Source of the DNA: an uncultured Paracoccaceae bacterium
Lineage (GTDB): Bacteria; Pseudomonadota; Alphaproteobacteria; Rhodobacterales; Rhodobacteraceae
Length of the DNA stretch: 64,000 bases
NCBI GenBank assembly: GCA_947503775.1
Contig: CANNFE010000001.1
Coordinates: 434,001 to 498,000 of the forward strand
Direction of reading: 5' to 3'
Shown here: positions 21,639 to 25,611 of the stretch, piece after piece
Layout of the letters: the number at the start of each line of letters is the position of its first letter
Numbering within the stretch: the stretch's first letter is position 1
Made by a program: the position numbers and the translations under genes
Notes under the pieces: generated by a model
Told to the model about the DNA's origin: nothing
The model's database searches: none
The model's input: only the letters and a program-made list of their open reading frames with translations

Positions 21639-21803
21639 GACCGCGCCTCGGTCGAAAAGAGCACGCATTTCCAGATTCGGCACTCACATTGACCTGCCTG
21701 AAAGGAAATTGCGAAAAATCGCACGTCTGCGACACAATCTCCAAAGAGCTGTTGACCTTAATGAGGAAGACCGGCATAGCTGCATCTCACGATGGAGAAG
21801 ATG

Positions 21804-21851
21804 ATGAAGCTCGTACTCATTCTTGTAGGACAAAGGCGCATGGGTCGATAA
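21804..21851 (+). CDS. ilv leader peptide MKLVLILVGQRRMGR
   Basis: Small ORF preceded by GGAG; six consecutive branched-chain codons (LVLILV); followed by mutually exclusive hairpins. Confidence 0.8.
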   Translation: MKLVLILVGQRRMGR

Positions 21852-21905
21852 TCGACAACCAGACCGGTTCCCATGCGCCCCCGATACAATCGGGGGCTTT
21901 TTTTT
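21835..21905 (+). promoter_or_regulatory. Transcription attenuator of ilvI
   Basis: Antiterminator GGCGCATGGG (21835-21844) with CCCATGCGCC (21870-21879) versus terminator GCCCCCGA-tacaa-TCGGGGGC (21877-21897) plus T8. Confidence 0.85.
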
Positions 21906-21959: not shown

Positions 21960-23705
21960 ATGACACGTCAGATGACCGGAGCAAAAATGGTGGTTCAAGC
22001 GCTGAAGGATCAGGGCGTGGACACGGTATTTGGATATCCCGGTGGCGCTGTCCTTCCGATCTATGACGAGATTTTCCAGCAGAACGAGATCCAGCATATC
22101 CTTGTCCGGCACGAGCAAGGTGCGGTCCACGCCGCCGAAGGCTATGCCCGCTCGACCGGAAAGCCGGGCGTTGCGCTGGTCACGTCCGGCCCCGGGGCGA
22201 CCAATGCGGTCACCGGCCTCACGGATGCCTTGATGGATTCGATCCCGATCATCGTGCTGACCGGGCAGGTTCCGACTTTCATGATCGGCTCCGATGCCTT
22301 TCAGGAGGCCGACACAGTCGGGATCACCCGCCCCTGCACCAAGCACAATTGGCTGGTCAAAGAGACCGACCGTCTGTCCGCCACGATCCACGAAGCGTTC
22401 CATGTCGCAACCCACGGCCGTCCGGGGCCGGTTCTGATCGACATTCCCAAGGATGTTCAATTCGCAACGGGCGCCTACAGCCCGGCCCATGCGGTCGAAA
22501 CGCATTACGCTCCGCGGACCGACGGCGATCCCGAGGCGATCGATGCGCTCGTCGACCTGATAGAGACAGCGACGCGCCCTGTCTTCTATACGGGCGGCGG
22601 CGTCATCAATTCAGGCCCCGAGGCGAGCCAGCTGCTTCGCGAGCTTGTCGCCGAAACCGATTTTCCGATCACCTCGACCCTGATGGGGCTCGGCGCCTAT
22701 CCCGCTTCCGGCAAGAACTGGCTGGGCATGCTGGGGATGCACGGCCTCTACGAGGCCAACATGGCGATGCATGACTGCGATCTCATGATCAATATCGGCG
22801 CCCGTTTCGATGACCGCATCACGGGGCGCACCGATGCGTTCAGTCCCAAATCGAAAAAGGCGCATATCGATATCGATCCCTCCTCGATCAACAAGGTCAT
22901 CCATGTCGATGTCCCGATCCTGGGCGATGTCGCGACCGTGCTGAAGGCCGTTCTGGCGCGCTGGAAAGAGCGTGGATCGAAAACCGCCGATATCAGCGCG
23001 TGGTGGGACGAGATCAAGGAATGGCGCAAGATCAACTGCCTGGCCTTCACCCAGGAAGGTCCGTCGATCAAACCGCAATACGCTCTGGAACGGCTCGAGG
23101 CGCTGACGAAGGATCATGATCGGTACATCTGCACCGAGGTCGGCCAGCACCAGATGTGGGCCGCGCAGTATCTTGGCTTCGAAGAGCCGAACCGATGGAT
23201 GACCTCCGGCGGGCTCGGGACGATGGGCTACGGTCACCCCGCCTCCATCGGCGTGCAACTGGCACATCCCGATGCGCTCGTCATCAATGTCGCGGGCGAG
23301 GCGTCCTGGCTGATGAACATGCAGGAGATGGGAACGTCGGTCCAATACCGCCTGCCCGTCAAACAGTTCATCCTGAATAACGAGCGGCTCGGCATGGTGC
23401 GCCAATGGCAGGAGCTGCTGCATGGCGAGCGCTATTCGCAAAGCTGGTCTGAGGCCCTGCCCGACTTCGTCAAACTGGCCGAGGCCTTTGGGGCCAAGGG
23501 GATCATGGTGTCGGACCCCGCCGATCTGGACGACGCGATCCAAGAGATGATCAATCACGACGGCCCGGTTCTCTTCGATTGCCTGGTGGAGAAACACGAG
23601 AACTGCTTCCCAATGATCCCCTCGGGCAAAGCGCATAACGAGATGCTGCTTGCCAATGCTCAGACCCAAGGTCAGATCACGGCCACGGGGGCAGTGCTTG
23701 TCTAG
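21960..23705 (+). CDS. ilvI: Acetolactate synthase large subunit
   Basis: MTRQMTGAKMVVQALKDQGVDTVFGYPGGAVLPIYDEI... 581 aa, TPP-binding motifs. Confidence 0.95.
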   Translation: MTRQMTGAKMVVQALKDQGVDTVFGYPGGAVLPIYDEIFQQNEIQHILVRHEQGAVHAAEGYARSTGKPGVALVTSGPGATNAVTGLTDALMDSIPIIVLTGQVPTFMIGSDAFQEADTVGITRPCTKHNWLVKETDRLSATIHEAFHVATHGRPGPVLIDIPKDVQFATGAYSPAHAVETHYAPRTDGDPEAIDALVDLIETATRPVFYTGGGVINSGPEASQLLRELVAETDFPITSTLMGLGAYPASGKNWLGMLGMHGLYEANMAMHDCDLMINIGARFDDRITGRTDAFSPKSKKAHIDIDPSSINKVIHVDVPILGDVATVLKAVLARWKERGSKTADISAWWDEIKEWRKINCLAFTQEGPSIKPQYALERLEALTKDHDRYICTEVGQHQMWAAQYLGFEEPNRWMTSGGLGTMGYGHPASIGVQLAHPDALVINVAGEASWLMNMQEMGTSVQYRLPVKQFILNNERLGMVRQWQELLHGERYSQSWSEALPDFVKLAEAFGAKGIMVSDPADLDDAIQEMINHDGPVLFDCLVEKHENCFPMIPSGKAHNEMLLANAQTQGQITATGAVLV

Positions 23706-23718
23706 TAAAGGTGATCGG

Positions 23719-24573
23719 ATGAGCGAGACATCGACCCTCGAACAGAAAGAGATCGTGACCGTAGACACCTGCTTCGGTCCGATCGAAGCCTATGAGAACG
23801 ACCTCATCACCGAACATCTCGAGCAATTCGGGAATCTCACCAGACCAGAATTCGCCTTCGCAACGAGTGTCGTGACGCCCCACACCAAGATGTTCGATCT
23901 TGGCGCGCATATCGGCACGTTCTCGATGACAGCCATGGCCAAGATGTCCTCCAGAGCGCAGATCTTGGCGGTCGAGGGAAGCCCTGCCACCGCGGCTATT
24001 TTAAGTCGAAATATCAACCGTCTAACGCTGACGGCGAGTGGAACCCAGATCGATGAGCGACCGCACGTTACGGTCTTAAACGCCCTAATGGTCCCGTCCC
24101 GAGACCGGTTCTCCCTGGCAGAGAACGAGACCAATACCGGCGCCAGCAGGCTTTCTCTGGAACAACACGGGGCAGGTTCCGAAACAGAGATCCCGCAGTT
24201 CGGGATCGATCAGCTTGTCGAGAAATATTTCCGGCCCGATTACATCAAGATCGACCTGGAGAGTATAGAAGGTCTGCTTCTTGGCTCCTCCACATATGTT
24301 TCAGCGACCAAGCCGCTGATCTACATGGAAGTTGCCAGACATGCGATGGGCAGTTTCGGAACAAAACTGACTGACCTCGATGCGTTCATGAAGAAGCTCG
24401 GATACGTCTTTTACGTGAACGATTTCGACCGAAACGGCCCTCATGACATCTTCAGAGTTCGCCGCATCAACGATCTTGCAACATATAGAAAGTTCTTCGA
24501 CGTCCTATGCGTGCCCGAAAGCAGCGAGTTGAGCGGTACCTTTAGCCGGTATTTCGGGACGCGAGGCTGCTGA
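23719..24573 (+). CDS. FkbM family methyltransferase
   Basis: KMFDLGAHIGTFSMTAMAK...ILAVEGSPATAAILSRNI...PDYIKIDLESIEGLLLGSS. Confidence 0.85.
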   Translation: MSETSTLEQKEIVTVDTCFGPIEAYENDLITEHLEQFGNLTRPEFAFATSVVTPHTKMFDLGAHIGTFSMTAMAKMSSRAQILAVEGSPATAAILSRNINRLTLTASGTQIDERPHVTVLNALMVPSRDRFSLAENETNTGASRLSLEQHGAGSETEIPQFGIDQLVEKYFRPDYIKIDLESIEGLLLGSSTYVSATKPLIYMEVARHAMGSFGTKLTDLDAFMKKLGYVFYVNDFDRNGPHDIFRVRRINDLATYRKFFDVLCVPESSELSGTFSRYFGTRGC

Positions 24574-24660
24574 AATGCTAAGTCTAAGCTTCAACGTGGC
24601 CATAGCAATTCGCCTCAGTCAAGATTTGCAGCTCCCTCAGCAGTCCGGGGTCCCGAAGAG

Positions 24661-25050
24661 ATGATCGAGAAGAAAGATCGCTCCAAGGGTTTCGACCCCG
24701 CAAGGCGCAAAGCAAAAGACAATGCGCGTCAACGCAAGATCGCGGCCAACAGCTCTGACAAGGCCGCCCGCAAGCATGCCAGAAAGCTAAAGGCAATGGA
24801 GAACCGTCGTATCAGGCGGATCGGAAAGGTCGGTCTTGCGGAACGTCCTGAAGAATATGCGGATGCCCTTCGCCCTTCCCATCGCCATAAAGACAGACAC
24901 TGGGGCACCGAGAACGCAGCCAAACGCAGAGCACAGCGCACCGAAGAGCGCGCTTTACTTGATGAAACAGCTGGTCAGCCCCCCTCCGGCCGAAGCCGCG
25001 TTTCGCTGATCCGAATGGGTTTGCGGAACTATAACAAGGAAGAAGAATGA
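24661..25050 (+). CDS. Small highly basic hypothetical protein
   Basis: 129 aa, K/R-rich; directly precedes ilvH. Confidence 0.55.
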   Translation: MIEKKDRSKGFDPARRKAKDNARQRKIAANSSDKAARKHARKLKAMENRRIRRIGKVGLAERPEEYADALRPSHRHKDRHWGTENAAKRRAQRTEERALLDETAGQPPSGRSRVSLIRMGLRNYNKEEE

Positions 25051-25053
25051 GAT

Positions 25054-25611
25054 ATGTCAGCCCTAAAGATCAAAAAAGGCGCCACAAGCCACTCTGCCTA
25101 TAACCTGAGGCCTGCTTTTTCCGAAACGATCGAGCGGCACACCCTCGCGGTCGTCGTCGGCAACGAGCCGGGCGTTCTGGCGCGGGTGATCGGGCTTTTC
25201 TCCGGACGCGGCTACAACATCGAGAGCCTGACGGTCGCCGAAATCGATCATGAGGGGCACCGCTCGCGCATCACGATCGTCACGACCGGCACGCCGCAGG
25301 TGATCGAGCAGATCCGTGCGCAGCTTGGCCGGATCGTCTCGGTGCACGAGGTTCACGATCTCACGGTGGAGGGACCATCCGTGGAGCGGGAGCTGGCTTT
25401 GCTAAAGGTGAAGGGAACGGGCGACAAACGGCTCGAGGCGATGAGGATGGCCGATATCTTTCGGGCCAAGGCCGTCGACAGCACGCTGGAAAGCTTTGTT
25501 TTCGAGCTGACCGGAACACCCGAAAAGATCGATGCCTTCATCGATCTGATGCGTCCGCTTGGTCTGTCGGATATTGCGCGAACCGGTGTTGCCGCCTTGT
25601 CGCGAGGTTAA
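25054..25611 (+). CDS. ilvH: Acetolactate synthase small subunit
   Basis: HTLAVVVGNEPGVLARVIGLFSGRGYNIESLTVAEIDHEGHRSRITIVTTG ACT domain. Confidence 0.95.
   Translation: MSALKIKKGATSHSAYNLRPAFSETIERHTLAVVVGNEPGVLARVIGLFSGRGYNIESLTVAEIDHEGHRSRITIVTTGTPQVIEQIRAQLGRIVSVHEVHDLTVEGPSVERELALLKVKGTGDKRLEAMRMADIFRAKAVDSTLESFVFELTGTPEKIDAFIDLMRPLGLSDIARTGVAALSRG

Follow-up and report, generated by a model that had tools for sequence, protein, structure and literature searches.

The acetolactate synthase gene ilvI of an uncultured Paracoccaceae bacterium is preceded by a short reading frame and a terminator-like hairpin, and the question is whether this leader controls ilvI, in response to what signal, and by what change of structure. 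The analysis covered a stretch of 64,000 nt (hereafter, the window). The best explanation, in our view, is control of ilvI by a ribosome-mediated attenuator for branched-chain amino acids (probability about 0.87), under which ilvI(H) expression would increase upon scarcity of charged tRNA for Leu, Val or Ile. The elements of the locus are as follows.

21752–21757, plus strand: –35 box TTGACC of the leader promoter, at the family-wide TTGAC position
21775–21780, plus strand: probable –10 box CATAGC, spacer of 17 nt, aligned with CATAATGT of relatives
21794–21797, plus strand: Shine-Dalgarno sequence GGAG of the leader ORF, from the sequence, 6 nt to the ATG at 21804
21804–21851, plus strand: leader peptide ORF MKLVLILVGQRRMGR, 15 aa; Leu/Val/Ile run and RMGR end kept family-wide, GTA/CTA enriched
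21835–21844, plus strand: P1 5' strand GGCGCATGGG, within leader codons (sequence, family conservation, covariation)
21845–21856, plus strand: P2 hairpin TCGA-TAA-TCGA(C), whose loop holds the stop codon of the leader (fold; covaries in the family and in Hyphomicrobiales)
21857–21869, plus strand: P3 hairpin AACC-AGACC-GGTT, third arm of the junction (fold; less regular among relatives)
21870–21879, plus strand: P1 3' strand CCCATGCGCC, perfect 10-bp match to 21835–21844 (sequence, covariation)
21877–21905, plus strand: intrinsic terminator, stem of 8–9 bp and T8 (sequence, terminator scan, covariation)
21960–23705, plus strand: ilvI, acetolactate synthase large subunit (Pfam TPP enzyme domains; orthologues in 121/121 family genomes)
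25054–25611, plus strand: ilvH, acetolactate synthase small subunit (Pfam ALS_ss_C)

The leader ORF reads ATG AAG CTC GTA CTC ATT CTT GTA GGA CAA AGG CGC ATG GGT CGA TAA, with six Leu/Val/Ile codons in a row; further in-frame ATGs are present at 21801 and 21792, and the position of GGAG suits the start at 21804. The terminator consists of GCCCCCGA-TACAA-TCGGGGGC (21877–21897) followed by T8 (21898–21905), and was also recovered by a terminator scan. A Leu/Val/Ile-rich leader ORF and an intrinsic terminator are thus both found in the sequence, as an attenuator would require. An earlier note on this DNA had named the codon run, the perfect 10-bp pairing inside the 3' codons of the leader, the terminator with its TACAA loop and T8, and the location upstream of ilvI, and all of these are confirmed. 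Its statement that every component is visible holds for the elements that it named, but it had overlooked the hairpin around the stop codon, the three-way junction, and the relation to the Rfam family RF02502 described below.

Transcription of the leader probably starts near 21787. The CATAGC box was not called by a generic sigma-70 scan of the window; in the family, 97 of the 98 leaders have TTGAC ahead of P1, compared to 8.3 in shuffled sequences, and nearly always at a distance of 80–95 nt, with a CATAATGT-like box about 17 nt after it. The position of the promoter is therefore conserved, and the –35 box would place it upstream of the leader ORF, so that the leader would be part of the ilv transcript. 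The earlier note had held that a transcription start downstream of 21804, or loss of the branched-chain codons or of the hairpins in relatives, would speak against attenuation; neither is seen, as, so far as sequence tells, the promoter lies upstream of the ORF, and the codons, the stem and the terminator are kept family-wide.

In the interval between ilvI and ilvH (23716–25050 of the window) there are an ORF for a FkbM-type methyltransferase and a 129-aa ORF without a Pfam match, and these two ORFs have matches in none of 30 sampled relatives. IlvH is encoded downstream of ilvI, within the stretch examined, in 26 of the 30.

For the analysis of conservation, IlvI orthologues were searched for in 121 family genomes, all of them positive, and 111 regions upstream of ilvI, including that of the window, were read; these were picked irrespective of the presence of GCGCATGG. 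The family is probably Rhodobacteraceae, judging by its gene content and by named hits adjacent to ilvI. This sequence is found at the expected site in 92 of the 111 regions, and the layout of P1 and terminator fits 98. The latter constitute the alignment A1 of family leaders; as a stem of 6 bp or longer was the criterion of choice, the following enrichment is partly circular: a perfect helix of at least 8 bp ending at the terminator is observed in 85 of the 98 leaders, against 1.7 in shuffles. The arrangement is far beyond chance, and the encoded peptide usually ends with LVVIVGxxRMGR.

Covariation in related leaders, proposed in the earlier note as a check, is indeed observed for P1, P2 and the terminator. 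In alignment A1 pairing is retained in 92% of cells for P1, 85% for P2 and 93% for the terminator. Double changes occur in 9 of the 13 pairs of P1 and P2, compared to 3.3 in shuffles (0/500 shuffles reach this value), and in 5 of the 8 terminator pairs (1/500 shuffles). In individual leaders P1 is rebuilt in other sequence, as GGTGCATGGG/CCCATGCACC in L141 and GCGCAGTCGC/GCGACTGCGC in L160. At the same time, P1 is near-constant, most of its pairs varying in few leaders only, and the conservation of its sequence exceeds what pairing requires. The Arg codon of the leader RMGR is almost always CGC (a count anchored on GCGCATGG). That RMGR is conserved chiefly as a peptide is a weak explanation, because of this preference and because the base preceding CGC is invariably G even when the codon changes.

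Codon usage in the leaders is distinctive. Relative to a background of the window genes and the loci of relatives, GTA constitutes 52% of Val codons versus 8% (p=8e-58), and CTA, 34% of Leu codons versus 2% (p=2e-34), as would fit a role of slow codons in sharpening the sensor. On average, Leu, Val and Ile account for 5 of the 9 codons preceding the stem.

No comparable leader was found upstream of ilvI at 28 loci from other alphaproteobacterial families, nor at 28 loci from the G107 order. The pattern GCGCATGG-N-CCATGCGC, considered as a class-wide sign of the leader, yields mostly chance matches in coding DNA, and therefore was not counted as evidence of breadth. Ahead of an ilvI-like gene in L007 (1501–1624, family f70) lies a leader, MSLLIVPCAPNEGLA, whose P1-like stem is unrelated in sequence and is separated from the terminator.

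The proposed course of events is as follows. Transcription would begin at approximately 21787, and the 15-aa leader would be translated at once. With ample branched-chain amino acids, the ribosome would proceed to the stop codon at 21849 and mask the 5' strand of P1, which would leave the complete terminator free to form and to end transcription at about 21905. Under shortage it would stall in the LVLILV run, which includes the rare GTA codons, and P1 with the inner hairpins would then form a three-way junction abutting the terminator. The junction would remove the three basal pairs of the terminator beside the U-tract, perhaps with the aid of crowding in the RNA exit channel, and the polymerase would read into ilvI.

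The calculated structures are consistent with this scheme in part. The leader region folds better than its shuffles (z = –2.89), and in the minimum free energy fold P1 closes P2 and P3 into a three-way junction, with a shortened terminator alongside. Folding in two ribosome states, a calculated equilibrium with assumed ribosome footprints, gives for the outermost terminator pair a probability of 0.37 with a stalled ribosome versus 0.97 with a ribosome at the stop codon, for the second pair 0.61 versus 0.99, and for the third 0.86 versus 0.99; from the fourth pair inward the values are about 0.94 or more versus 0.99. The earlier note had proposed that stalling frees an antiterminator and completion of translation leads to termination. 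The attenuator itself agrees with the conserved codons, and with the stem and terminator with their compensatory changes, but the stalled fold leaves all but the basal one to three pairs in place. Similarly, the suggested overlap between the antiterminator and the 5' arm of the terminator exists, but is limited to GCC (21877–21879, 3 nt). As the basal pairs adjoin the U-tract, where they matter most, the simple model is reasonable for the window, and we somewhat favor loss of these pairs, caused by the stalled ribosome and the three-way junction, as the switch operating there.

The model does not extend to all relatives. The overlap of P1 and terminator is 1–3 nt in 90 family leaders, while in seven divergent ones a compensated P1 lies 3–5 nt from the terminator, with zero overlap, and in Hyphomicrobiales leaders the gap is 8–11 nt. 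In both of the latter sets folding predicts that the terminator forms whether the ribosome is stalled or at the stop codon. Since P1 is clear of the terminator there, strand exchange cannot be the whole mechanism, and base-pair exclusion, judged from the folding models, is not general to the module; the description of the locus as a textbook case of mutually exclusive hairpins is right only in part and not supported as worded.

These same observations suit a different switch, compatible with attenuation as such, in which P1 acts on RNA polymerase: the junction, formed only upon stalling, would be a put-like pause or antitermination element or would block the exit channel, and the terminator would never refold. 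The near-invariance of the P1 sequence, despite existing compensated variants, points in the same direction. On the other hand, most family members, the window included, have conserved an overlap of 1–3 nt, and the contact with polymerase is hypothetical; we regard this switch as unlikely, if worth serious consideration. Whichever the switch, about a hundred natural variants are available for probing how a stalled ribosome may block an intrinsic terminator when stem and terminator have hardly any strand in common.

The polarity of the switch could also be the opposite, with P1 serving as a pause or protector hairpin and read-through occurring when P1 is absent. In the trp 1:2 hairpin the leader stop codon lies between the strands, as it does in P1, and an alternative antiterminator pairing to the terminator 5' arm, sought by eye and by folding, was not found, nor was a conserved one seen. 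However, starvation would then silence ilvI, unless stalling at the last Val codons masks P1 and another pairing exists, and folding shows none. We consider such reversal highly improbable, and retain starvation-induced read-through as the proposed direction.

A search of the window against Rfam yielded no match at the gathering threshold. A lax search retrieved, together with chance-level sRNAs, RF02502 (“Rhizobiales sRNA Atu_C8”) with 27 bits (E 0.0024), below the cut-off of 50 bits. The likeness is nevertheless detailed: the P1 strands of RF02502, GCGCAUGGG and CCCAUGCGC, are identical to those of the window, and the family has a Leu/Val/Ile leader ORF ending with RMG, a stop-codon hairpin and a terminator in the same layout. 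It differs in being annotated as an sRNA, not an attenuator, and in the 8–11 nt spacing between P1 and terminator, which overlap in the window. The Hyphomicrobiales loci were collected by a pattern scan of named genomes with selection by exact P1, and are among the matches listed. About 26 of the analysed ones lie, among the matches listed, roughly 100–170 nt upstream of ilvI, and their P2 covaries at 5 of 7 pairs. All 15 scanned leaders of the Hyphomicrobiales type exceed the RF02502 cut-off (79–128 bits); eight of them precede ilvI, and seven are of the MFS type (Bcr/CflA-like). A model built from Hyphomicrobiales (R1) matched only G107 in the class-wide sample.

RF02502 matches with a leader ORF, located before ilvI or an MFS gene, are found in L227, L233, L242, L231 and L006; L006 and its relatives belong to family f107.

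The typing of RF02502 as an sRNA gene raises the possibility that the leader is mainly a trans-acting small RNA, in its terminated form and, e.g., via the GCGCAUGGG strand, with minor control of ilvI. The extreme conservation of P1 would agree with such a role, and in S. meliloti an attenuator product, rnTrpL, also acts in trans (PMC7298713). This reading is nonetheless very unlikely: in the family the leader is immediately followed by ilvI, in Hyphomicrobiales by ilvI or an MFS gene, the P1 helix would hide the seed, and the enrichment of Leu/Val/Ile and of rare codons would have no explanation. Rather, the typing of RF02502 as an sRNA gene probably needs revision, the family covering leaders of the attenuator kind; a public annotation would thereby be corrected, from an “orphan sRNA” to a leader with an ORF.

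Branched-chain amino acid attenuators of Alphaproteobacteria are already known in kind (PMC4117421; PMC2573895; PMC6123439). Attenuation of ilv operons was described in Caulobacter, and the C. crescentus ilvBN/ilvIH leaders resemble that of the window, by description, in tandem Ile/Val codons, an intrinsic terminator and the ilv operon context (PMC4117421). A cis-regulatory element of S. meliloti ilvIH is listed, citing Vitreschak 2004, in PMC2573895. The trp, leu and ilv attenuators of E. coli share a leader peptide rich in the regulating amino acid, a terminator, and a hairpin around the leader stop (PMC6123439), but their antiterminator and terminator have a long strand in common, in contrast to 1–3 nt or none in the family studied here. 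In the open-licence literature we found no description of the relation to RF02502, of a three-way junction that hardly overlaps the terminator, or of copies at efflux genes.

The latter were observed repeatedly. Other Hyphomicrobiales loci among the listed matches of the pattern scan are upstream of an MFS gene. A model built from the window's family (R2) matched ten genomes of the class, four from the family itself and six from other families, and all six other-family loci precede a Bcr/CflA-like gene, some having a mismatched P1 and few Leu/Val/Ile codons. Three of the MFS proteins, of which one is encoded at a G107-type locus and two at R2 loci, score above the curated TIGR00710 cut-off (Bcr/CflA efflux), while the remaining MFS genes were assigned by sequence resemblance alone. 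As the module occurs upstream of both ilvI and Bcr/CflA-like genes, two types of genes would be served. Tentatively, one may suggest a single alphaproteobacterial attenuator module, with branched-chain codons in the leader, the leader stop codon in a hairpin of a ribosome-gated three-way junction, and a near-invariant outer stem, but no strand exchange, which controls acetolactate synthase and a Bcr/CflA pump, RF02502 being this module and not a stand-alone sRNA. If so, blocking branched-chain amino acid synthesis or translation would switch on the target enzyme together with an exporter, hinting that Alphaproteobacteria may regulate amino acid synthesis and drug efflux jointly.

Leaders of the module before Bcr/CflA-type MFS efflux genes are present in several alphaproteobacterial families (L352–L357, L231, L006); for leaders of the window's type, six families besides its own are involved. 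In Sinorhizobium sp. A49 (L228, 1174–3093) the module is located ahead of an ABC transporter gene with fused membrane and ATPase domains.
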